DNA of 64,000 bases from Patiria pectinifera (lineage: Eukaryota > Echinodermata > Asteroidea > Valvatida > Asterinidae). Of the stretch, positions 3,780 through 62,819 are shown piece by piece (within the stretch, counting starts at the first letter, position 1; every line of letters begins with the position of its first letter). The stretch lies in the NCBI GenBank assembly GCA_029964075.1, contig CM057136.1, positions 9,424,001 through 9,488,000 of the forward strand. Direction: 5' to 3'. Made by a program: the position numbers and the translations under genes. The notes under the pieces are model-generated. The model saw nothing but the letters and a program-made list of their open reading frames with translations, did no database searches and was not told where the DNA came from.

Positions 3780-4450
3780 ACACAGCACCATCACCACATG
3801 CCCGGACCCGCCCCCTCCCCCACCCCAAGCCCCTACCCACACCCATCCCATCCTCCACCTACTCATCTCCACCCCATCACCTACACATCCCAACCACACC
3901 CAAACTCCTATCCCTATCTCCTTAACCCTCCCCTCCCCCAACCCCCTACACCCACTACCCTATAATGTCCCTATCCCTCCTTACCCACCCCTACACATCC
4001 CCACCCTAACCCCTACTCGAATCCCTATATCCCGCCCACCCCAATCTTCCCTAGCCATACTGACCCATACCTCCCCGCCTGACCCCAACCCCTACTCCGA
4101 TCCTTATACCCTGCCCCCTCCCCTTACCCAACCCTATACACCTACGCTACTCATCCTCACCCACCCCTACACATCCCCACCCTAACCCTACTCAAATCCA
4201 TATTTCCTTCCCCCTCCCCGACCCCCTAACCCTCCCCCTACCTGTCTCCACCCCACCCATACATTTGTACACATCCCCACCCCACCCAAACCCAGTATTC
4301 CAACCCCAGCCGCCACCCCAACCCACCCACCCCACCCCACCCTATCTCCCCTACCCATCCCTATACCAACCCAAACCCCAACTCCAACCCCTATCTCCCA
4401 CCCCTATTCCCCACCCCCATCCTCCCCTACCCCATCCCTACTCCACCCAC
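3780..4450. repeat. C-rich degenerate array (CCCCACCC/CCCTAACCC type)
   Basis: Nearly pure C, A and T on the + strand, with runs of three to five C separated by A/T/AC and several CCCTAACCC words. It is duplicated at 36830-37437 with different length details. The long proline-rich frames here are a by-product of composition. The complementary strand is a run of G tracts with potential to form G-quadruplexes. Confidence 0.85.
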
Positions 4451-6514: not shown

Positions 6515-6915
6515 GACCGACTGGACCGGGCCGGACTGTCTTTTGTGATTTCGACTAGAATATTAAGCCCGACCGGCCGACCCAAACTGACTGACCTGAT
6601 TTGACCTGCCCTGATCTGAACTGAACTGACCTGAACTGACTAACTGACCTCACCTGTCTAAGATTTAGACTTGAATAAAACCAGACCCAACCCGAACTGT
6701 CCTGACCTGATTGACCGGCTCGACCTGATTGACCTGACCTGCACGACGTGACCTAACCTGAATGATCTGACCTGACGTGAAGTAGCTGGCCTAGACTGAC
6801 TGTCTCTTGTGATTTAGACTTGAATAAGCCCGACCCGATCTGACTGACCTGACCTAGCTGACCTGACATGACCTGACCTAACTGACCTGACCTGACCTGA
6901 CCTGACTGACAGTCT
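6515..6915. repeat. TGACC pentanucleotide array
   Basis: A degenerate 5-bp tandem repeat (CTGACCTGACCTGACC type) interrupted by CTGTCTCTTGTGATTT spacers. The duplicate at 40280-40600 has an expanded CCTGT subarray. TGACCT is also the complement of the nuclear-receptor half-site AGGTCA. That is probably incidental to the repeat. Confidence 0.85.
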
Positions 6916-21100: not shown

Positions 21101-22080
21101 TGTTTAAAGGAGTGCACATTTGCAATAAGATTAACCCAAAAAGTGTTGTCAAATGTGTAGTTTAACATTTCACAGAGTTGCACAAAAAGAATTCCTGAGA
21201 AAAATGCATTGCACATACCCTTTAATTAAGAAAGAAAGTCAGTCTACGGTTTGAAGTCATCAAATATGATTTACGCTAAGGAATACGGACACTTCTGAAG
21301 TCTTAAAAGATGTTTGACAAAATGTAACATATGTTTGCCCATTAATGAAAACGAATACCCGATTAACCCCTTACTAATGGTTTTAGACGAAATTGAATGA
21401 AAAACGCAATACTTTTAATATGAATGCATCTTTGATGGGGACGAGTGAAGCTAAAAGGCGATAGAATGCTCGAATAGTGAAATTGAATGATTCTTTTTGA
21501 TTGTCGAATGCCGATCTGCGTGATCTTTCAATTTCAATCTAAATCGAATGAGCCAGGCGTTAAGTTGAATGAAAACTGGGTGAAATTGGCCGGGAAAACC
21601 TTAACCAAAAATTGTTGTCAAATGTGTAGTTTACTTACATTTTACAGTAGTAAAGAGTTGCACAAAAAGAATTCCTGAGAAAAATTCATTGCACATACCC
21701 TTTAATTAAGAAAGAAAGGCATCTACTTATTGAAGACATCAAATATGATTTACTCTAAAGAATAAGGAAACGTATGAAGTCTTAAAAGATGTTTGACAAA
21801 ATGTAAAATATGTTTGCCCATTAATGAAAACGAATGCCCGATCAACCCCTTACTGCTGGTTTGGACGAAATTGAATGAACAACGCGATACTTTTAATATG
21901 AATGCATCTTTGATAGGAACGAGTGAAGCTGACAGGCGATGGAACGCTCTAATAGTGAAATTGAATGATTCTTTTTGATTGTCGAATGCCGATCTGCGTG
22001 ATCTTTCAATTTCAATCTAAATCGAACGAGTCGGGCGTTAAATAGAATGAAAACTTTGTGAAACTGGCCGGGAAAACCTA
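18191..22080. mobile_element. Fold-back element E1 (TAGGTTTTCCCGG family)
   Basis: Starts TAGGTTTTTCCGGCC, ends GGCCGGGAAAACCTA, and is flanked by TA on both sides. Most of its length is inverted repeats. The block around 18730-18830 recurs inverted at 19830-19920 and 20990-21060, and the TTGCGTTATTTCTTAAATG module occurs in both orientations (19165, 19450, 20605). Several internal junctions suggest nested copies. It is rich in TTGAATGAAAA-type words and has no coding frame. The TA duplication fits Tc1/mariner-like mobilisation, but that is inference. Confidence 0.75.
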
Positions 22081-25798: not shown

Positions 25799-26144
25799 CG
25801 GCGTCGACAGTGGCGTCGACAGTGGAATCTCCGGGGGGGGGGGAGGGGGAGGGAGGGGAGATTGCCATGTAGGCATATTAACGGTTCGAGCTTAGTGGTA
25901 GCCCGCTAGCCAAATGCGAGTAAATACAGCGGCGGGCTAGTCAAAGCACTGGTTACATTACAGTGTAATAATCCGTTTGTCTTGTTAATGACTTTTACTT
26001 TTTAAGGAGATAATTCAAGGGGGAATTAATATAAATGATGTGGTTGTTTAATGTTTGTCATGTAAAGTTTAATGTATTTTAATGTTTTGAGCACGAGAAC
26101 CACAACACTTTCTATTGTATACCATTGTATATAAATGGCAATCA

Positions 26145-26176
26145 TTCAAATCAATCAATCAATCAATCAATCAAAT
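26145..26176. repeat. (TCAA)n microsatellite
   Basis: Tandem TCAA units follow a GTATACCATTGTATATAAATGGCAAT sequence split across 26115-26140. The copy-2 counterpart is at about 60490-60522. A tetranucleotide run after such a sequence resembles the 3' tail of a non-LTR element, but no coding part is present. Confidence 0.7.
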
Positions 26177-26811
26177 CCAGTATACCCCCTGGCGAGTCAA
26201 AATTATTGAAATAAGGCATGCAACTTTCTCGTGTATCCGTTGAATTTAGCGTTTTTAAAGGGAATTGCGGCCTAAAATCCCCGAAAATGTCATGTTTTGG
26301 ATTGATTAATACTTATCCTATTTCAGAGGTCTGGTTGAAAGGAAACTAATGTCTTACCGTTCCAAAGAAAGACAGGGGGGACGGTCGTTTACATCGCATG
26401 GATCGGACGCGGCGGTCATTTCAGCCGTGTTCATTTAATGTACGGTACTTACTCGTTGCGCGCGTGTGGCACATAATACACAAACTAGCACCCAACAGCT
26501 CGATTTTTGAAAGTCAAAATTTTGACTTTTAAAGGATAGTTATGGAGTCGATATTTTTATCCTTCTTTTAAATGCTCTTTCCAATTTTGTTGCCCAACTT
26601 GGCGCATTCGAGAACGTAATATCCCTTTAAAATTGCTGGTCTCATAAAAAAACATAATCTGATACTGACGCGCATTCATTTGTTTCATGGCATTGCGCCG
26701 CCGACTTCTGCGCCAAAACCGCTTGCGTGTAAATTTAAAAAGCATGGCCTGGCTGTGCGTTTTGAAGAGCGTACCACTTTTGCTGCCAAAAAAACAACAC
26801 CAAAAACCGAC

Positions 26812-26987
26812 ATAGTATCTCCTTTAAACGACATAGTATCTCCTTTAAACGACTTATTGTCTCGTTTAAATGACTTATTTATGTTTTTTAAACTACGGAT
26901 TTTATCTTGTTTAAACGACTTTTTTTATCTGGTTCAACGACTTATTTATGTTATGAATGACTTATTTTTCTCTCTTTCAAACGAGCC
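26812..26987. repeat. 21-bp palindrome array, TTTAAA centre (copy 1)
   Basis: Imperfect units of a TCGTTTAAACGA-type palindrome separated by 9 bp (CTTATTATC type); the unit period is 21 bp with indels. It lies 60 bp upstream of the exon 3 acceptor. The counterpart, 62683-62808, is better conserved. See the finding on 21-bp arrays. Confidence 0.7.
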
Positions 26988-27047
26988 TAGGCACACTATT
27001 AATAACCCCGCCCCACCCTGATCGATATTTCCCATTACCTCCGACAG

Positions 27048-38715: not shown

Positions 38716-38971
38716 TATGAAGCCCGGGAAGGGACAGGGTGGAGTTTTTTTTGGGAATTTCCTAATTCGCTCGCACGAATGACTAATTCGTAAGACGAAT
38801 TAGCAAACTCCAGTAATTCGTTCGCACGAATGACTAATTCGTTCCCACGAATTACGAATAGGAATTCGTGCGAACGAATGACTAATTCGTGCGAACGAAT
38901 GACTAATTCGTGCGAACGAATTAGGAAATTCCAAAAAAAAAATTCCACCCTGTCCCTTCCCGGGCTTCATA
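38716..38971. mobile_element. 256-bp hairpin element with 21-bp palindrome array (TGCGAA centre)
   Basis: Ends TATGAAGCCCGGGAAGGGAC and its inverse, flanked by CTGACG at 38710-38715 and 38972-38977. Copy 1 has the empty site CTAACG at 5196-5201. The inside consists of 21-bp units, a TTCGTGCGAACGAA-type palindrome plus TGACTAA; the arms carry centres TTCGCA and TGCGAA, reverse complements of each other, so the strand can fold into a long hairpin. It inserted after the segmental duplication. Confidence 0.85.
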
Positions 38972-40279: not shown

Positions 40280-40600
40280 CGCACTGACCGACCGACCGGA
40301 CCGGACTGACTGTCTCTTGTGATTTAAACCCGACCCGACCTGACCAGATCTGACCTGACCTGACCTGACCTGACCTGACTGTCCTGTCCTGTCCTGTCCT
40401 GACTTGACCTGATCTGATCGACCTGACCTGACTGACCTGACCTGACCTGACCTTATCTGACCTTACCTTACCCACTGACATGACTGACTGTCTCTTAAAT
40501 CAAGACTTGAATAAACCCGACCCGACCCGACCTGACTGACCTGACCTGACCTAGCTGACCTGACTGGCTGTCTCTTAAGATTTAGACTTACATAAGCCCT
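40280..40600. repeat. TGACC array, duplicate copy
   Basis: Counterpart of 6515-6915, with longer uninterrupted runs of CCTGACCTGACC and a CTGTCCTGTCCTGTCC subarray not seen in copy 1. Confidence 0.85.
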
Positions 40601-40740: not shown

Positions 40741-42600
40741 CAAGTAAATCAGAAACCCCAAAAAGCTGGCAGAACAATTAAAAGCAACTTTTGGTAAGAT
40801 CCAGAGAAAGAAAAACAGTTTTCCCATTAAACTCTTACTGGTTTAAGATGAAATTAAAAGAATATTTTCCAAAAATAATTAGTTTCTCTCTCGATACAGG
40901 GGCAAACACGTCTGAACTGGCGTCCAAGTCTAAGATATTAAAACTCCTTGCCAAAAAAACCTAAAAACCTACTGGAAACACATAATTCCGTTAAAAAAAG
41001 TGAAGATGTAAATATTTGTGCACTTAGAAGTTAAAACTTCTTGCCAAAAACCCACTTAAACACTGCTACGAGCACATAATGAAGTACCGAAGTGAATACG
41101 TCATGCGCACAAAATGTGTGTGAAAGACATTACACGCGCGCGAGTACATGTTCGTTTGCACTACGCTTTCTGGTTCTAATTGACGTCACACTTCGGTACT
41201 CCATTCCTTTGTCCCCATCGAACGTACAATCATATGCATACGCATAGGAAGCCGCCACAGCTGGAGACTTGATGACAAATCATTAGATAATCGTATTTTG
41301 TCTGTGAACTTCAGTCGAACTCCATCGGCGCGGCTGGTATAAGACTAGTACGTTATCGGCCGGGTTGCGACATAATACGACTTGACGGGTTCGTTCTCGG
41401 AACGATATTCTACGGAAGCGTACTTAGGACATGACCGAAAATATTTTTTAGGCCCACTACTTCGCCCCGGGCGGATAACTATTTCGCCCGGGCGGATTAC
41501 TATTCCGCCCTAAATACACTTCCGTAAAATGAGGACCCGTTCATTCCGTTACATGGGGAGTTCTTCTCAATACGTCGGGACATATCGGGCGGATCGGGCG
41601 ACGTTTTAACGGCCAAATCCCTCAGCTTGGTCAAATGTGTATAGAAATAAAATGTATCATTGTGATATATACTTGATTTATTTGAGTCGTGTATGCCCTA
41701 TAATGAATTTTTGAATGTTACACAACACAAAGCACAAACCCTCGAAGTAATGAGAATGACCTTCCGTAGCGGCCTAGAATACACGCTGGAATCTGAACCA
41801 ATCAGAGTGCTCGCATAGAATTCGCTAGCGATTTAAAATACTCCCATACGTTGTGTACACAATAGAAAACATTTTCGCCAAGTCGGTTATTGAACATCAA
41901 TAGTCAGCATCATTTGGTCTGGGAACCAGGCTACGCCACTGATCTCTGTCTTACTAATGGAGATCAATGACTAACGTGTATAGATCAGTGGGCTACGCAC
42001 ATTGCAGTGATATTTTTTGTGCGTGGAACCAGTAACCGACTGGGCACCAAGTCTACCACAGCCGCCAAAGCGCTAGGGGCGCTATCACCAAAACAGTTAC
42101 ATCACATCAGTATCTTAATATATAGGAAAGAGAAAGGAAAGCACAAGTCATGAATAAACATGAGGCACAGTTTTCCAATCGACTTTCCAATTAGCTCGAC
42201 ACATTCTGACATTAATGAATGAAATATCTTCAATCTATAAATATTCATCGGCTTATTCATATTTTGTATTGAGACATTAGCCAATGATAAGCCCCGGCCC
42301 TCTATGTCTCCCCAATCACAATTGTTTCTTTTCCAACTTCGTCCCCTGTATGTACTGTACATGTACATGTACGTCATGTACGTGTATATAGACCCACTGG
42401 GGCATGGGAGGGAGATGGTTTTTCAGTAGACTTGGAACCCGGGCGTTTGTAGCGGTTTAGGCCGTGCAGAGGCAGCAGGGTACCAGGTGTACTATATTGG
42501 CTCTATAACACGCCGCGGGCGTCGATTACCAATCGCTATAAAAACTGGACTATTCAACCACTGGACTCCAAGACTACGAGGACCGCAGCCTGTGATGTGA
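40741..42600. other. No gene seen; decayed duplication and one small element
   Basis: Faint similarity to 7061-7500 continues (CATTCCTTTGTCC, and GGGCGCTATCACCAAAACAGTT against GGGCGTTATCAACAAAGCAG at 7443). The small element at 41411-41526 is annotated separately. TACATGTA words cluster at 42345-42385. Confidence 0.5.
41411..41526. mobile_element. 116-bp MITE with CCCGGG-centred palindrome units
   Basis: Inverted ends TACGGAAGCGTACTTAGG and CCTAAATACACTTCCGTA (TA included). It encloses two and a half units of a TTCGCCCGGGCGGA palindrome followed by the 7-bp spacer TTACTAT, a 21-bp period in the exact unit. Its termini match those of the larger element at 60898-62682 (TACGGAAGCGTAG), linking the two as one family. 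Confidence 0.75.
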
Positions 42601-52183: not shown

Positions 52184-53689
52184 TAATTCAATTTCACTAT
52201 CCGAGCATTCTATCGCTTTTAGCTTCACTCGTCGCTATCAAAGATGCATTCATTTTAAAAGTATCACGTTGTTCATTCAATTTGGTCTCAACCAACAGTA
52301 AGGGGTTGATCGGGCATTCGTTTTCATTAATGGGCAAACATATTTCACATGTTGTCAAACATCTTTTAAGACTTCATATACGGTGTCCGTATTCCTTAGC
52401 GTATTAAAATCATATTTGATGTCTTCAATCCGTAGATACCTTTCTTTCTTAATTAAAGGGTATGTGCAATGAATTTTTCTCAGGATTTTTATTTTGTGCA
52501 ACTCTTTACTACTGTGAAATGTAAGGAAACTACACATTTGACAACATTTTGTTGTTTAATCTTATTGCAAAGGTGCACTTTTTAAACATTTAAAAGTTTC
52601 CATGCTTTTCCGGACTACGTATGATCGCGTTGTTACTGTGATGTTATTTCAGGAAGACACTGTTCAGTTTAGGGGTTTTTCTTTCAAATTATTCATCCAA
52701 AATTTGCTAATTGAAAGCATAAAAAATTTCCGACAGCAAAATATCCAAAATTCTAGCAACTTTTTTTTGTGCTGAAATAGCCATGTAACATTAGTCATGC
52801 ACGGAATGCCATCACAGGTTTTCTAATGAGTATGAAACTTTGCATTAGCATAACAACAGAGAACGAACCAAAAACACCCCTCAAAATAGAAAATATAACT
52901 TGCAAATAAGGTTAAATGTGACACAAAGATGTATTTTCAAGGTTTGCATTGAAAACTTACTTTGCACGGGCCCTTTGAATACGAAAAGCGTTCTTTCAGA
53001 CATACACAAGAAAACATTTAAGAAATAACGCAGGAGAAGTGTTCCTGATGGTACAACCATTGCCAAACATACGCATCCCGATGTCTTGCACGTGAAGAAA
53101 TTGTCAACGTAAAGATGCCTCTGGCTCAAACGTTTAAACAAGTAGAAAAGATCAACAGTGAAAATGAAATTATCTTAGTCCCTTTCAGTTAATTATTTCG
53201 TTACATCTTGTTTCCCTTATATCAGTTAATTTGTTACTTTGTAAATTTTACAGTCATCAAGATTTTTTATTGGGGGGGGGGATGAACCTCGGAGGAAAAT
53301 AGGAAAGTATATCGATTAAAAAAGGTTACTAATTCAAATGACCAAACGATGAAAGCGATTGCCCATAAACGAGTAAGAAACGAAAATCATGGTTATACGT
53401 TATAAGCGCACAGATGTTCGCTAATTTGAATGCATCAACAGTCAAAAGGTTGCAAAGACTTAATTTAAGACTGCTACAAGTTAAGTCTTGAATGCACCAA
53501 AACGAAATAGGCTGCCCGAAAACGAAAACGAACATTCAGAACAAAATCTTGGCTGCCTAAAAATGAAATTGAATGAACCTAAAATGAAAAAGAAACCCCA
53601 ATTTGACCACATGTGCAAAACTCACGCGAAATTGAATGGCTGATAATGAAACTGAATAGAAAAATTAGGAAATTCGCCAGGAAAACCTA
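52184..53689. mobile_element. Fold-back family element E5 (left end missing)
   Basis: The right end GCCAGGAAAACCTA is followed by TA. The left end is abrupt and lacks the TAGGTTTTCCC terminus. It separates two blocks that in copy 1 (23426-23530 and 23665 on) are joined by only about 130 bp, so the insertion was accompanied by a deletion or the left end was lost. Confidence 0.65.
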
Positions 53690-54309
53690 TACATTAACCA
53701 CCGGAATACAGACAAAGGAACGCAGTCATCAAGCGCTTGCTTTCTGCCTCATTGCTTGTTGATAGGTTATTCAATAAAACTGAATAATTTTCTTCCATGG
53801 TAGATTTTTGTTATGATGATTTTGCACTTAAATGCAAGGCCAGTAGAATTGGGCTAACGAGAGAGTTACTGAGACCTCATAGTGTGTACATTCATGTACA
53901 TCTTCCTGATCCGAAAGTCACAGGGAGCAATAATATTTGGAAGAAGCAAAAAAACATTCAAACGATATGAGTCAGGGAGGTACTGATAAAGGGGGTGATT
54001 CAGTCGTTGGTTAATGAGTATGAAGACAAAAAATGGATCAATGCCTTTTTAAGTATGAAGAAGTCAGCCAAGAGTAGGCCTTCCTTTTCAATATAGGTTT
54101 TCCCGGAAAAAAATCCGAATTGTTCTAATCAGTTTCATTATCAGCAATTAAATTTCGCGTGAGTTTTGCACATGTGGTCAAATTGGATTTTCTTTTTCAT
54201 TGTGGGTTCATTCAATTTCATTTTAGGCAGCCAAATTTGCTCTGAATGTTCGTTTTCGGACATCCTATTTCGTTTTTGTGCATTCAAGACTTAATTTGTA
54301 GCAGTCTTA

Positions 54310-54689
54310 GGCCAAAAAAAAATAGTCGGTCTCTGGTCAGACCGAAGTTCCGGAATTGATGCGGCGACGCGGATTTTTTTTTTTTTGGAGGCCTTTTTTT
54401 CAAGCTTGAATTGTACAGACAAGGCGGGTACTATTTTGCTTTTTTGTGTCCTCATTATACATTGGTGTCCTCCATAATTTGCCTTGGTACCCTGTATCAT
54501 TTGCCTTGGTGTAATTTCCCCATTCCTTGGTGCTCCTTGGTGCAAAAGTTTGAGGAGGGGCGGCAATAGAGGGCGCTATTGTAGCTTCCGTGTTAATTTG
54601 AAGAAGAAAAAAAGGTTGACGCGCATGATTAAAATCGACGCGCGCGCTGACCAGAGACCGAGTAATATTTTTTTTTGGGGGGGGGGGCC
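54310..54689. mobile_element. PIF/Harbinger-type MITE H3 (TTA target)
   Basis: GGCCAAAAAAAAATAGTCGG at the left, inverted A/T and G runs ending GGCC at the right, exact TTA on both sides (54307-54309 and 54690-54692). The uninterrupted sibling sequences at about 20170 and 56105 (GCAGTCTTAAATTAAG) are the empty site. Arms pair through CGGTCTCTGGTCAG. Non-coding. Confidence 0.85.
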
Positions 54690-55886
54690 TTAAATTAAGT
54701 CTTTGCAACCTTTTGACGGTTGCCGCATTTAAATAAGCGAACATCCGTGCGCTTATGACGTATGACCATGCTTTTCGTTTCTTATTCGTTTATGGGCAAT
54801 CGCTTTCATCGTTTGGTCATTAAAGTTAGTAAGATTTTTTAATCGATATATTTTCCTATTTTCCTCCGAGGTTCATTTCCCCGAAAAATCTTGAAGACTA
54901 CAAAATTTGCAATGTTACAAATTAATTGATATGAGTGGAAACAACATGTAACGAAATATTTAATTGAAAGAGACTAAAATAATTTCCTTTTCACTGTTGA
55001 TCTTTTCTACTTGTTTACACGTTTGAGCAAGGGGCATCTTCACGTTGACGATTTCTTGACGTGCAAGACATCGGGACACGTATGTTTGGCAATGGTTGTA
55101 CCATCTCTTGCGTTATTTCTTAAATGTTTTCTTGCGTATTTCAGAGCGAACACTTACCGTATTCAAAGGGCCCATGTAAAGTAAGTTTTCAATGCAAACC
55201 TTGAAAATACATCTTTGTGTCACATTATTCGCAAGTTTTATTTATCCATTTTAAAAGGTTGTTTTGGTGCCTTCTCTGCTTTTATGCTAATGCAAAGTTT
55301 TATATTAATCAGAAAACCTGTGATGGCATTCCCGGCATGACTTAATTATGTTACATGGCCATTTCAGCACAAAAAAGTTGTTAGAATTTTGGATATTTTG
55401 CTGTCATCAATTTTTTTTATTTGGTGATTCTTTAATGTGTCAGTTCATGGCAGTAAGTCATCGAGCAACCCTTTCCCATAAATGTTTTGAATTAGCAAAT
55501 TTTGCAAGAATAAATTGAAAGAAAAACCCTAAACTTCCTGAAATGACATCACAGTAACAGCGCGCTCATACGTAATCCGGAAAAGCATTTTAAATGTTTA
55601 AGGAGGTGCACTTTTTTAAATGTGTAGGTTTTTTTTACAATTCACAAAGAGTTACACAAAAAGAATTCCGAAGAAAAATTCATTGCACATTAAGAAAGAA
55701 AGAAATGCTTCTTCGGATTGAAGACATTACATATGAGTTACGCTAAGGAATACGGACACATATAAAGTCTTAAAAGATGTTTGACAAAATGTGAAATATG
55801 TTTGCCCATTAATGAAAACGAATGCCCAATCAACCCCGTAATGCTGGTTTAGACGAAATTGAATGAACAACGCGATACTTTTAATA

Positions 55887-58018
55887 AAGGTTTTCCCGGC
55901 GAATTTCCGAATTTTTTTAATCAGTTTCATTATCAGCCATTCAATTTCGCATGAGTTTTGCACATGTGGTCCAATTGGGGTTTCTTTTTCATTTGGGTTA
56001 TATTCAATTTCAGTTTTAGGCAGCCAAGATTTCACTGTGAATGTTCGTTTTCGTTTTCGGGCAGCCTATTTCGTTTTGGTGCATTCAAAACATAACTTGT
56101 AGCAGTCTTAAATTAAGTCTTTGCAACCTTTTGACGGTTGACGCATTCAAATTAGTGAACATCTGTGCGCTTATAACGTATAACCATGCTTTTAGTTTCT
56201 TATTCGTTTATGGGCAATCGCTTTCATCGTTTGGTCATTTAAATTAGTAAGATTTTTTTATCGATATGTTTTCCTATTTTTCACCGAGGTTCATTCCCCC
56301 CCCCAAAAAAATCTTGATGACTGTAAAATTTACAATGTTACAAATCAACTGATATGAGGGAAACAACATGCAACGAAGTAATGAATTGAAAAGGACTAAG
56401 ATCATTTCTTTTTCACTGTTGATCTTTTCTACTTTTGAACAAGGGGCTTTTTTACGTTGACGATTTCTTGACGTGCAAGACATCGGGACACGGAAATGGT
56501 TGTACCGTCTGGAACACTTCTCTTGCGTTATTTCTTAAATGTTTTCTTGCGTATGTCTGACCGAACACTTACCATATTCATAGGGCCCATGCAAACTTTT
56601 CAATGCAATACATCTTTGTGAGACACATTTAACCTTATTTGCAAGTTTTATTTTCCATTTTGGGGGGCGTTTTTGGTGCCTTCTCCATTTTTATGCTAAA
56701 GCAAAGTTTCATATTCATTAGAAAACCTGTGATGGCATTCCGAGCACATGAATAATGTTACACGGCTATTTCAGCAAAAAAAGTTGCTAGAATTTTGGAT
56801 ATTTTGCCGTCAGAAATTTCTTTTATTTGGTGACTATATGATGTGTCAGTACATGACACTAAGCCAATGACCATCCCTTTCCCACAAATGTTTTTAATTC
56901 GCAAATTTTGGATGAATAATTTGAAAGAAAAAAACCCTAAACTGATCAGTGTCTTCCTGAAATGACATCACAGTAACAGCGTTAGTCCGGAAAAACATTA
57001 GTCCGGAAAAAGCAAGACATCGGGATGCGTATGTTTGGCAATGGTTGTACCATCAGGAACACTTCTCCTGCGTTATTTCTTAAATGTTTTCTTGTGTATG
57101 TCTGAAAGAACGCTTTTCGTATTCAAAGGGCCCGTGCAAAGTAAGTTTTCAATGCAAACCTTGAAAATACATCTTTGTGTCACATTTAACCTTATTTGCA
57201 AGTTTTATTTTCTATTTTGAGGGGTGTTTTTGGTTCGTTCTCTGTTGTTATGCTAATGCAAAGTTTCATACTCATTAGAAAACCTGTGATGGCATTCCGT
57301 GCATGACTAATGTTACATGGCTATTTCAGCAGAAAAAGTTGCTAGAATTTTGAATATTTTGCTGTCGGAAATTTTTTATGCTTTCAATTAGCAAATTTTG
57401 GATGAATAATTTGAAAGAAAAACCCCTAAACTGAACAGTGTCTTCCTGAAATAACATCACAGTAACAACGCGATCATAGTTACGTAGTCCGGAAAAGCAT
57501 GGAAACTTTTAAATGCTTAAAGAAGTGCACATTTGCAATAAGATTAACCCAAAAAGTGTTGTCAAATGTATAGTTTTCTTACATTTCACAGAGTTGCGCA
57601 AAAAGAATTCCCGAGAAAGATTCATTGCACATACCCTTTAAGAAAGAAAGTCAATCTACGGTTAGAAGTCATCAAATATGATTTACGCTAAGGAATACGG
57701 ACACGTATGATATGAGGTCTTAAAAGATGTTTGACAAAATGTGAAACATGTTTGCCCATTAATGAAAACGAATGCCCGATCAACTCCTTACTAATGGTTT
57801 AGACGAAATTGAATGAACAACGCGATACTTTTAATATGAATGCATCTTTGATAGGGACGAGTGAAGCTAAAAGGCGATAGAATGCTTGGATAGTGAAATT
57901 GAATGATTCTTTTTGATTGTCGAATGCCGATCTGCATGATCTTTCAATTTCAATCTAAATCGAATGAGCCAGGCGTTAAATTGAATGAAAATTTTGTGAA
58001 ATTGGCCGGGAAAACCTA
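55887..58018. mobile_element. Fold-back family element nested inside E6
   Basis: AAGGTTTTCCCGGCG … GGCCGGGAAAACCTA with TA on both sides. The host sequence resumes exactly (ACTTTTAATA before; TATAAACGCATCTTTGATAG after) where sibling copies read ACTTTTAATATGAATGC. It therefore inserted into a member of its own family at a TA. Confidence 0.8.
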
Positions 58019-59770: not shown

Positions 59771-60897
59771 AAGTATCTTAGAACGCAACATTAGCAAGGC
59801 CTTTCTGGTAATATATTTCCTCTCATCAATTGGATCATAAGGTAATTAGCCTCGTTCATTTATAATGCAGTAACTCCGGGAAAATACACAAAAGAGGCAC
59901 AACCATTAATTGCTAGCTTTCTGCCTCATCTTCCCGCCCAAAATCAATTAGGCATCGATGAAAATAAATAAATGAAGTCAAATTATCCATGATATTTCAA
60001 TTGTATAGTTCACTGAAAAGCAGAGCCAGCATAAAAAAAATTCAAAGCGGAGTACTCCCTGTACTTTTGGGTTTTCATCACAGAGTACGCATAACCCTTG
60101 GTGTAACCCATCGGATACGCACCAAGGGAGACGATTTCTAGTCGGGATGTGGAGGGGACAGCGGCGTCAACAGTGGAATCTCGGGGAGGGGGGGGGGGGA
60201 GGGAAAGGGAAGATTGCCATGCAGGCATATTAATGGTTCGAGCTTAGTGGTAGCCCGCTAGCCAAATGCAAGGTTGTACAGCGGCGGGCTAGTCAAAGCA
60301 CTGGTTACATTACAGTGTAATAATTCGTTTGTCTTGTTAATGACTTTTACTTTTTAAGGAGATAATTCTAGGGGGAATTAATTAAAATTATGTGGTGGTT
60401 TAATGTTTGTAATGTAAAGTTTAATGTATTTTAATGTTTTGAGCACGAGAACCTCATCACTTTCTATTGTATACCATTGTATATCAATGGCAATCAATCA
60501 AATCAATCAATCAATCAATCAAAACCATTAAAGTATAGTCCCCCTAGCGAATCAAAATTATTCAAATAAGGCATGCAACTTTCTAGTGTGTCCGCAGATT
60601 TTAGCGTTTTTAATGGGAATTGCGGCCTAAAATCCCCGAAAATGTCATGTTTTGGATTATACTTATCCTATTTCAAAGGTCTGGTTGAAAGGAAACTATT
60701 CTAATGTCTTACCGCGTTCCCAAGAAAGAAGGGGGGACGGTCGTTTACATCGCGTGGATCAGACGCGGCGGACATTTCAACCGTGACCATTCAATGTACG
60801 GTACTCGTTGCGCGTTGCAATGGCAAAACAAAAGCGGCAGAATTCAAGACTAGCACCCAACTGTCAAAATTTTGACTTTTAAAGGATGGTTATTACG
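59771..60897. repeat. Second duplicated block, copy 2
   Basis: Follows 24569-26545 in the same order, without the hAT element at 24965. It includes the (TCAA)n run near 60490-60522 and a G run near 60185. No gene. Confidence 0.75.
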
Positions 60898-62682
60898 TAC
60901 GGAAGCGTAGAAGGGCCAAAAGAAATTAAGAAAAATGTAGTTCCTATCTCGCCGCGGCGAGTTACTATCTCGCCGCGGCGAGTTACTATCTCGCCGCGGC
61001 GAGTTACTATCTCGCCGCGGCGACTTACTTTCTCGCCGCGGCGAATTACGACATCGCGAAATGAATTACTATCTCGCCGCGGCGAATTACGATATCGCGA
61101 AATGAATTACTATATAGAGATAGTAACTCGCCGCGGCGAGATAGTAACTCGCCGCGGCGAGATAGTAACTCGCCGCGGCGAGATAGTAACTCGCCGCGGC
61201 GAGATAGTAACTCGCCGCGGCGACTTACTGTTTTGCATCAGCGAACGTCAGGCACGACGAATAGCGATACTCTTTGGGTCCTATGGAACGCCATAGAGGC
61301 ATTTAATGTGATCATCAAATCGGTGATGCACTTTATCGATAGGCAGTGGAGTTTTGCAATCGGTGATTGACTGTCACAATCGGTGATGGATTTTCGCGAG
61401 TGGTGATGGATTTATGCAATATGTGATCAACTTCTGGCAAAACTAACAACCTAATCACCCACACAGGGCTGGGTTCTAATTTCTTTAGTTAGTACGTCCG
61501 ATGAATGAAATAATATATGCAATAATAAAGTTGTCCTTTCTTTTTTTGTTAAGAATAAATTAAGAAAGAAAACAAAGTTCAATAGGCGGCAACAGGTGAT
61601 TTATCCACTTTGAATGCCAGATCCATTAGCGTACGGGATGAGGATGACCCTGCCAACTATTCAATATTATGATTGCATCTCTCAGAGGGCGGGGAAAGTA
61701 ATTACTGTAATGTACCGTTTTCGATCGTTACTACCGATTTGAATGAAATAGCTCAAATTACCGTTACACAGACATTTGGATGTTCGCGGGTTAACTCTTT
61801 AAACATCATTTACTCCCGTTTTGAAGGCCGTTATCTCAGAGATCATGATCCTACTATGTACTAAAAAATCGTTTTGATATGTTCAGTATTTTCCATTACA
61901 ATTTGAAAAATAGGCTTTGAGTTCGTCATTTTTCAATACTTTCAAGCGTCACGAATATTAAATAAGGTTCTATCCATATGGAATGCAGTTACAAAGTTTA
62001 CGACTCCCTCCTTGACGAGTTCTCCACCCAACAAAAATGTTAAACTTTTTGGTTGTTTTCGATTGGTCTATACCAAGACCCACGGGAAGTCACGCAGAGT
62101 CACGCTAAGTATTATGCTAATAACGCGCACGTCATATTTACGTCAACGTTGCGGCAAAACCGGCCATGGTATAGCGTTCCGGTTGACCGTGTGTTTTAGT
62201 TAGTTATCCCGCGAGCGCGAGTGGAACACGGATTAATGTAGAACATCTATAGTGGACCGGCCGAGTGGTATGTGGGACACTAGACTAGGGCTGGTATTGG
62301 GCGGATATCCGGTGAAGGAACCCTGTCTCACGGCCTTTCAGCTCGGATGAAATTTTGGGTCGCCCCTCCATTGTAACCCCTCCACGTCCCCTAGGATGAA
62401 AACCCTGGCTACGCCGATGCCTCTTTGGCGTTCCATAGGACCCGGAGGGATCGCAATTGTTGTGCCCGACGCTCACCGATACAAAATAGTAATTTGCCGC
62501 GGCGACATAGTAACTCGCCGCGGCGAGATAATAACTCGCCGCGGCGAGATACTAACTCGCCCTGGCGAGATACTAACTCGCCGCGGCGAGATAGTAACTC
62601 GCCGCGGCGAGATAGTAACTCGCCGCGGCGAGATAGGAGCTATTTTTTTCTTAATTTCTTTTGGCCCTTCTACGCTTCTGTA
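60898..62682. mobile_element. 1.8-kb transposon with palindrome-array arms (CCGCGG centre)
   Basis: Ends TACGGAAGCGTAGAAGGGCC and its near-exact inverse at 62663-62682, with TA at both edges. The left arm (to about 61302) and right arm (from about 62418) share AAAGAAATTAAGAAAAA, the 21-bp array and an inner GCGTTCCATAGGACC block. The left array, 60944-61231, has eleven CGCCGCGGCG cores and flips orientation near 61116; the right array, 62490-62636, has seven. The core contains CAATCGGTGATGG repeats (61316-61400) and a tRNA-like GGCCGAGTGG (62260). No transposase is visible. It is absent at the corresponding place in copy 1. Confidence 0.8.
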
Positions 62683-62808
62683 GTATCTCGGTTAAACGAC
62701 TTATTATCTCGTTTAAACGATTAATTATCTTGTTTAAACGACTTTTTTATCTGGTTTAAACGACTTATATCTTATGATTGACTTATTTGTCTCTCGTTCA
62801 AACGAGCC
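62683..62808. repeat. 21-bp palindrome array, TTTAAA centre (copy 2)
   Basis: Units TCGTTTAAACGA plus CTTATTATC, four to five copies. It starts immediately at the right end of the CCGCGG-type element. It corresponds to 26812-26987 in copy 1. Confidence 0.8.
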
Positions 62809-62819
62809 TATGCACGCTT

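Follow-up and report, generated by a model that had tools for sequence, protein, structure and literature searches.

In this genome, DNA transposons carry tandem arrays of short, mostly palindromic sites just inside their ends, and the central hexamer of the site follows the terminus of the element that bears it. Where a transposase is present, the hosts are well supported by sequence as transposons of the IS3EU superfamily, and it is probable that the transposase of each lineage binds its own subterminal array as dimers, with lineages diverging by joint change of the site and of the helix reading it. The arrays were first noticed in the window, the whole 64-kb stretch of DNA that was analysed (C8:9424001-9488000; the assembly comprises 613.5 Mb in 1,020 contigs), which contains the following features:

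60898-62682, + strand: IS3EU-type element without transposase, TACGGAAGCGTAGAAGGG / CCGCGG family, 1,785 bp (inverted repeats, boundaries, family copies)
60898-60935, + strand: its left outer terminal inverted repeat, TACGGAAGCGTAGAAGGGCCAAAAGAAATTAAGAAAAA, with 64 exact copies genome-wide
60939-61098, + strand: left array of 21-bp units CTCGCCGCGGCGAG-TTACTAT (TRF, sites)
61117-61223, - strand: second, inverted block of 21-bp CCGCGG units as in the left array (TRF, inverted repeats, sites)
62486-62636, - strand: right array of CCGCGG units (TRF, sites)
62645-62682, - strand: right outer terminal inverted repeat (inverted repeats, boundaries)
38716-38971, no strand assigned: IS3EU-type element with tip TATGAAGCCCGGGAAGGGACAGGG, 256 bp, target duplication CTGACG (6 bp) on both sides
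38763-38924, no strand assigned: ATTCGT-N4-ACGAAT array (TGCGAA of the earlier note), 21-bp spacing with irregular steps (TRF, sites)
41411-41526, no strand assigned: element with ends TACGGAAGCGTACTTAGG / CCTAAATACACTTCCGTA, 116 bp, no target duplication
41456-41510, + strand: CCCGGG array of about 2.5 units, frame CGG (TRF)
62684-62808, + strand: TTTAAA array in a duplicated segment (TRF, sites)
26808-26987, + strand: TTTAAA array, degenerate, in the other copy of that segment (TRF, sites)

The observation made in the earlier note, that several arrays share a palindrome frame and a 21-bp unit, is confirmed in the main, with corrections on length, symmetry and spacing, and TRF called 21-bp arrays in the window where that note had placed them. 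For instance, the CCGCGG arrays reported at 60944-61231 and 62490-62636 have a TRF period of 21 and hold 11 TCGCCGCGGCGA sites at 60949-61223, in one inward and one inverted block, and six in-frame sites at 62515-62631, one of which is TCGCCCTGGCGA. The CCCGGG array has the CGG frame attributed to it but merely about 2.5 units. Similarly, the TCG..CGA frame of the TGCGAA array holds, but its centre is no palindrome, symmetry being confined to ATTCGT and ACGAAT flanking four bases, and its spacing is irregular. One TTTAAA array shows the expected 21-bp period (62684-62772, copies 82% matching), but these arrays are degenerate, and the other (26808-26947) has periods of 21-23 and no strict-frame site. 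Host transposon ends were looked for around the TTTAAA arrays and none were found; these arrays had been taken as transposon-borne but are tied to no transposon ends. Three arrays had also been placed in small transposons with related ends; the three elements exist, but that at 60898-62682, at 1,785 bp, is not small. Its inverted arms extend over 160 bp, array included (38 bp in 38716-38971), its right tip is changed, it lacks a target duplication (ATTACG against GTATCT), and it contains no transposase match, there being none in the 64-kb window.

The window also holds other repeats. The TTTAAA arrays belong to a duplicated segment (25854-26997 and 60206-62818) whose long pieces are approximately 84-86% identical, and in the second copy the CCGCGG element replaces approximately 315 bp. 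A 3,077-bp element at 53249-56325 has inverted repeats of 443 bp (92% identical), tips TACAGTCATCAAGATT, the duplication AAATTT and further inverted parts inside, with no TRF array reported and no convincing transposase match. Additionally, TRF called (GACCT)n-type pentamer arrays at 6587-6910 and 40328-40566 and, at 21174-22079, a tandem repeat with a 478-bp unit (1.9 copies, 91% matching).

Framed arrays are far commoner genome-wide than expected by chance. Pairs of TCGN6CGA 21 bp apart number 6,317 in the 613.5-Mb genome, against 26 for the reversed pattern, while there are 288 pairs at 20 bp (reversed 39) and 283 at 22 bp (reversed 27), making the 21-bp spacing approximately 22-fold commoner than either neighbour. 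In the window, strict TCGN6CGA forms six chains (at least two sites, 20-22 bp apart), compared to a mean of 0 in 50 dinucleotide shuffles. GC content is 39.7%, and the CpG observed/expected ratio in the window, 0.89, indicates only mild depletion. The shuffles and the reversed-pattern counts rule out a chance or low-complexity origin of the arrays. A free satellite is likewise ruled out, as the arrays lie between inverted tips, in many copies flanked by target duplications.

Copies of the CCGCGG family were sought with an 85-base query spanning the outer inverted repeat and two units, which gave 274 matches; because 40 of 234 first-look candidates were scored, the copy count is a lower bound. 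Copies start with TACGGAAGCGTAGAAGGG and finish with its complement. Exact 6-bp duplications flank 11 of the 15 distinct CCGCGG elements that are complete within one locus (AATATG, CAATGG, TGTGTG, ACAAGC, CCGCGC, GTTGAT, AAGCAC, CAATAT twice, TATTCC and TTAAGG), the two CAATAT copies probably representing one insertion that was duplicated along with its surroundings. The remaining four have a 7-bp duplication (L021), six bases shifted by one (L058), inverted flanks (L025) or none (L036). Among CCCGGG end pairs, 5 of 13 have an exact 6-bp duplication (L021, L035, L043, L050 and L052), with the AATATG of L050 and L052, which are neighbours, probably reflecting a single insertion counted twice, and 8 of 13 do not, including 41411-41526. 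Exact 6-bp duplications were also found at two TACGTA elements (L049:1582-2448 and L055:578-1437), at 38716-38971, at the outer element L069:1155-2773 and at L078:1098-1938, and not at 60898-62682, 41411-41526, L042 or the inner TGCGCA element of L069. The smallest mobile form observed is tip, array and tip: a 219-bp copy at C19:33680883, with six units, nothing else between the tips and an exact duplication.

Several individual loci deserve mention. At L069:1155-2773, a TACGAAAGCCCTGT element with the duplication CTAAAC and its own array hosts a nested element with a TGCGCA array, so that two lineages are stacked. A 19-copy, 21-bp array of ATCCGTAATAACGAAT lies close to a CCGCGG element (L016:2283-2695). 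The flanks of the CCGCGG element L025 (C518:13473-16557) are inverted (ATTGTG / CACAAT), which points to an inverted duplication or else to a fold in the assembly. In the AAGGG-type short elements L036 and L042 the arrays are degenerate or absent; L042 (C1:19237098) is a 111-bp element with tips TACGGGAGTATAGAAGGG / TACGGAAGCGTAGGGGGG, no array and no target duplication, and because of it the array is not universal.

If the centre hexamer is a property of the lineage, as the earlier note supposed, then it should segregate with distinct termini. Five terminus types were counted, with at most three mismatches, at least 260 bp available and duplicates removed by genome position, and each end was scored for the commonest of seven listed centres (one mismatch allowed) within 260 bp. 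CCGCGG was commonest in 54 of 59 TACGGAAGCGTAGAAGGGCC ends, the other 5 having none; CCCGGG in 26/26 TACGGAAGCGTATTTAGGACATGA ends; TACGTA in 7/7 TATGGAAGTGTAGATAGGACATGG ends; TGCGCA in 3/3 TACGGAGCCCCTAAAGGGACATC ends; and TTCGCA/TGCGAA (one site read on two strands) in 2/2 TATGAAGCCCGGGAAGGGACAG ends, both from one element. The commonest centre was thus the family's own in all 92 array-bearing ends, five of which have a single site, and no array was present in 5 of 97 (one end of L016, with two degenerate CCGCGG sites, and two each of L036 and L042). An alternative removal of duplicates gave agreement in 84/84 ends. For loci found with the 85-base query, array letters were part of the query; L031-L060, picked by terminus only, have a matching site in 43 of 47 ends, a single one in 4 of the 43. 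Four array-bearing ends also carry a site nearer another centre: the CCCGGG-like TCGCCCTGGCGA at the right end of the window CCGCGG element, TGCGAA within a TGCGCA array, and both mixed ends of 38716-38971. Across families, the frame and the 21-bp spacing are kept while the centre changes.

The position and composition of the sites bear on whether the arrays have a function at all. Counting from the tip, the first palindrome begins at 50 bp in 29 of 48 CCGCGG ends, and in another 12 it begins at 71 bp, one unit further in. The corresponding distance is 50-51 bp for 17 of 24 CCCGGG ends and 40 bp for 6 of 7 TACGTA ends. The inner 12 palindrome bases are more constant than the 7-bp spacer in the CCGCGG (0.985 versus 0.890, 221 units) and CCCGGG families (0.952 versus 0.878, 139 units), and the two are alike in the TACGTA family (0.947 and 0.940, 57 units). 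It is quite unlikely that the arrays grew neutrally, by slippage or unequal exchange in inverted repeats in the style of foldback elements, and were homogenised with functionless palindromes. Such growth would suit the unit number, which differs widely between CCGCGG copies, and the inverted blocks within one arm, and in passages of PMC8268682 the oyster satellites CgiSat35 and CgiSat47 are annotated as IS3EU. However, seven different kinds of array accompany transposases, the first palindrome keeps its distance from the tip in the CCGCGG and CCCGGG families, one spacing is preferred approximately 22-fold, and the multi-CpG palindromes are steadier than the spacers in two of three families, though CpG depletion is mild.

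A structural role, in which cruciforms or hairpin transcripts lead to small-RNA silencing or replication-linked movement, is very improbable. Although the two arms are inverted and seven of the twelve kinds of array (CCGCGG, CCCGGG, TACGTA, TGCGCA, TTTAAA, TTATAA and GACGTC) are built of self-complementary units, changes in one arm of a unit are almost never compensated in the other (1/232), hairpins need no fixed 21-bp spacing, and the clean 6-bp duplications are a cut-and-paste signature. The other five kinds (the TGCGAA type, L016, L081, L083/L085 and L086) lack a clear palindromic centre or are palindromic in outer or inner parts only.

Most array steps measure 20-23 or 29-31 bp; others, for example 25 and 41, are a minority, and steps of 20 or 21 bp take turns with steps of 23 bp in some lineages. 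These are compatible with two and three helical turns, among other repeats of 9 to 10.5 bp: with eleven modes entered by hand, the helical-phase concentration is 0.955 for 9 bp, 0.967 for 9.5, 0.958 for 10 and 0.934 for 10.5. The proposal that all sites face one side of the DNA is not supported as it was put, and one-face phasing is not claimed here because repeats of 9-10.5 bp suit the steps alike.

The transposases located beside such arrays match PF24764 (rva_4, an integrase core), a family distantly related to IS3/IS481. Its profile has 87 matches in the genome and 0 in 14 control genomes. The best two, L076 and L077, have no arrays within 1.5 kb on either side, while arrays adjoin the rva_4 matches L078 (4.3e-26) and L079 (2.2e-36); among the loci examined, P0001 and P0002 match L076-L079 only. 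Seven more transposase loci (L080-L086) were examined over 601-681 bp upstream. The array-bearing loci are as follows:

L078 (C21:3057000-3062800): tip TACGGAAGTGTAGATAGGACATGG at 2110, TACGTA array at 2145-2452, transposase frame from 2581 (292 residues)
L079 (C3): 451-residue open frame beside an array of GAAAGACGTCTTTC with a 31-bp period, tip TACGGAAGCTTAAAG
L080: tip TACGGAGCCCCTAAAGGGACATCC, TGCGCA array, steps of 20 and 23
L081: 22-bp array, 2.5 copies, at the far edge, a weak case
L083 and L085: tip TACGAAAGCCCTGTAGTGCC, 30-bp array
L084: tip TACGGTGGC, CGCGTTATAACGCG array, steps of 21 and 23
L086: 31-bp array with no clear palindrome

Thus an upstream tandem array with a period of 20-31 bp is present at 8/9 transposase loci, one of the eight being weak, and seven kinds are represented; L082 has none in the 681 bp upstream. 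Tips are visible at six of the eight, L081 and L086 showing none because the stretches are too short. At L078, which shows the left end, a further exon at approximately 3898-4231, in a region matched by P0002, indicates an interrupted gene, which together with the assembly size marks the genome as eukaryotic. Searching with the protein P0001 returned 129 matches, the longer ones outside its own copies being 38-68% identical and weaker pieces down to 25%. Its putative catalytic residues, assigned from alignment, are D131, D190 and E231, and it matches the IS481 (2.6e-8) and IS3 (2.6e-7) models, both well below cut-off. Helix-turn-helix matches (Clr5, HTH_21) in the N-terminal regions of the transposase are below Pfam cut-offs, and no zinc family, such as an HHCC domain, is among its Pfam matches. 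L078 and L079 have 23/50 and 26/67 identical positions in their N-terminal parts and 63/157 in the core; divergence is no greater at the N-terminus than in the core.

These loci bear on a rather unlikely alternative, that the arrays mark the lineage but bind an accessory element protein, of the kind of TNPA in En/Spm, or a silencing or insulating host factor, and the transposase reads the outer inverted repeat only. The shared TA..TA tip does sit in the outer inverted repeat, the L078 array occupies a promoter-like place immediately before the transposase gene, and the helix-turn-helix matches are below cut-off. On the other hand, arrays occur at both ends, inverted, even in geneless elements, and the seven transposase-associated arrays differ in sequence, which is hard to square with a single host factor.

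The earlier note had asked for a full-length relative with a transposase, and this was found in part. TACGTA-family ends number 182 genome-wide (reversed pattern 0), and two of the ends listed, at C15:11722712 (+) and 11730221 (-), bracket a transposase match at 11723162-11724037. This element spans approximately 7.5 kb, but its transposase copy is damaged, with two internal stops. The distance from tip to transposase start in the family is 450 bp on C15, 401 bp on C1 and 471 bp at L078. Additionally, site pairs spaced by 20 bp, as is typical of TGCGCA arrays, flank a three-piece transposase at C2:1710856-1714321 and adjoin a transposase at C1:5767409; their spacing and the transposase lineage suggest that these arrays are of the TGCGCA type. 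No such relative was found for the CCGCGG and CCCGGG families: none of 142 listed transposase-match positions lies within 15 kb inward of their 64 and 51 exact ends, respectively. The nearest of the exact ends, C21:22147554, points away from a TACGTA-family transposase approximately 2.5 kb off, and the ends at C7:11623353 and C20:29539982 point away from matches approximately 10.4 kb off. As a separate observation, C7 (44.85 Mb, approximately 7% of the assembly) holds 38/87 PF24764 matches, some being fragments of the same gene, and 1/64 exact CCGCGG and 1/51 exact CCCGGG ends, and looks like a special chromosome for these transposons.

The hosts had been proposed as a transposon superfamily of their own; their ends, 6-bp duplications and transposase instead fit IS3EU. 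In passages of PMC10045372, IS3EU families have TA..TA termini and usually 6-bp duplications, and in those of PMC12730594, rust-fungus IS3EU elements have terminal inverted repeats (TIRs) >30 bp and TAYGG..CCRTA ends, along with 6-bp duplications and an IS3/IS481-related DDE transposase. The elements described here have TA..TA termini, 6-bp duplications, TIRs >30 bp and, the CCGCGG and CCCGGG families excepted, an integrase-like DDE transposase of the IS3/IS481 group; membership of those two families rests on ends and duplications. The CCGCGG, CCCGGG, TACGTA, TGCGCA, L079 and L084 families start with TAYGG, and in the TATGAAG and TACGAAAG families the initial TA is retained without the rest of TAYGG. 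hAT elements, which have 8-bp target duplications and a hAT transposase, are excluded by the 6-bp duplications and the rva_4 transposase. CACTA/En-Spm elements carry short subterminal repeats inside their ends that differ between families, and have CACTA tips and 3-bp duplications. They are excluded by the TA tips and 6-bp duplications, and belong to another superfamily whose repeats, unlike those here, are not regular palindromes.

Subterminal sites are known from other systems in different forms. Passages of PMC10368747 describe subterminal repeats in the hAT element Hermes, two sites of which make a quasi-palindrome, but there, as in Ac and Tol2 cited in the same passages, the motifs are short, irregularly placed and associated with a BED zinc finger and another transposase family, whereas the sites here are longer palindromes in regular 21-bp arrays. 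In piggyBac and piggyBat, according to passages of PMC11707139, palindromic internal sites (19 bp in piggyBac) are bound by paired domains of a transposase dimer, but the sites are few, form no tandem array, and extra ones can inhibit. Foldback elements (Galileo, Tetris) share long inverted arms with tandem repeats but belong to other superfamilies, and the arms of tandem repeats seen here are a structural likeness only, with short tips and palindrome arrays at fixed spacing. The IS3EU passages of PMC12730594 do not describe subterminal palindrome arrays, which are present here. The superfamily is thus a known one, and an end architecture with an array code was not found for IS3EU in the full-text literature searched, Repbase reports and most subscription journals being out of reach.

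Overall, part of the earlier note's interpretation is supported: the arrays lie in the arms of transposons with related ends, and neither of that note's two refuting conditions held, the arrays not being at chance frequency and their centres segregating with termini. The layout of an element is TA..TA tips, in several families TAYGG..CCRTA, an outer inverted repeat and then the array, which in most ends starts 40-51 bp from the tip and repeats every 21 bp (approximately 31 bp in some lineages), each lineage having its own site. The 219-bp copy of tip, array and tip, the inverted arrays, the fixed distance of the first site and the helix-turn-helix-like N-terminus make binding by transposase dimers the best reading. 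The DDE transposase of a lineage, with two helix-turn-helix-like regions before its core, would dock as dimers on both arrays, which would raise its local concentration and aid pairing of the ends, and the catalytic core would then cut at the TA..TA tips common to lineages. Lineages would diverge by joint change of the site centre and the reading helix, such that relatives in one genome may cease mobilising each other. Several observations count against this reading: no transposase was located for the CCGCGG and CCCGGG families, L082 has no array and L081 a weak one, L036 and L042 have degenerate arrays or none, the C15 and C2 copies are damaged, palindrome and spacer are equally constant in the TACGTA family, arm changes are almost never compensated, five of twelve kinds lack a clear palindrome, the N-terminal region is not faster-changing, and exact duplications are lacking in 8/13 CCCGGG pairs and in the CCGCGG and CCCGGG elements of the window.

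A broader and more tentative possibility is that IS3EU lineages form an orthogonal code, in which tips, frame and spacing are shared and each lineage has its own repeated address, mostly palindromic, read by its own transposase. Divergence may then shield a lineage both from cross-mobilisation and from its relatives' parasites, and transposase-less families, perhaps including CCGCGG and CCCGGG, might last only while a reader of their address survives. Within a single genome, seven kinds of array come with a transposase and five more without a located one, and the transposases are related but distinct. With sites that are simple and strictly framed, this is a natural data set on how a helix-turn-helix transposase may change its specificity, and it could be used to test whether address switching isolates transposon families and to obtain integration tools blind to one another. 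The literature found says little about the mechanism of this superfamily, to which the arrays contribute an end architecture absent from the papers searched.
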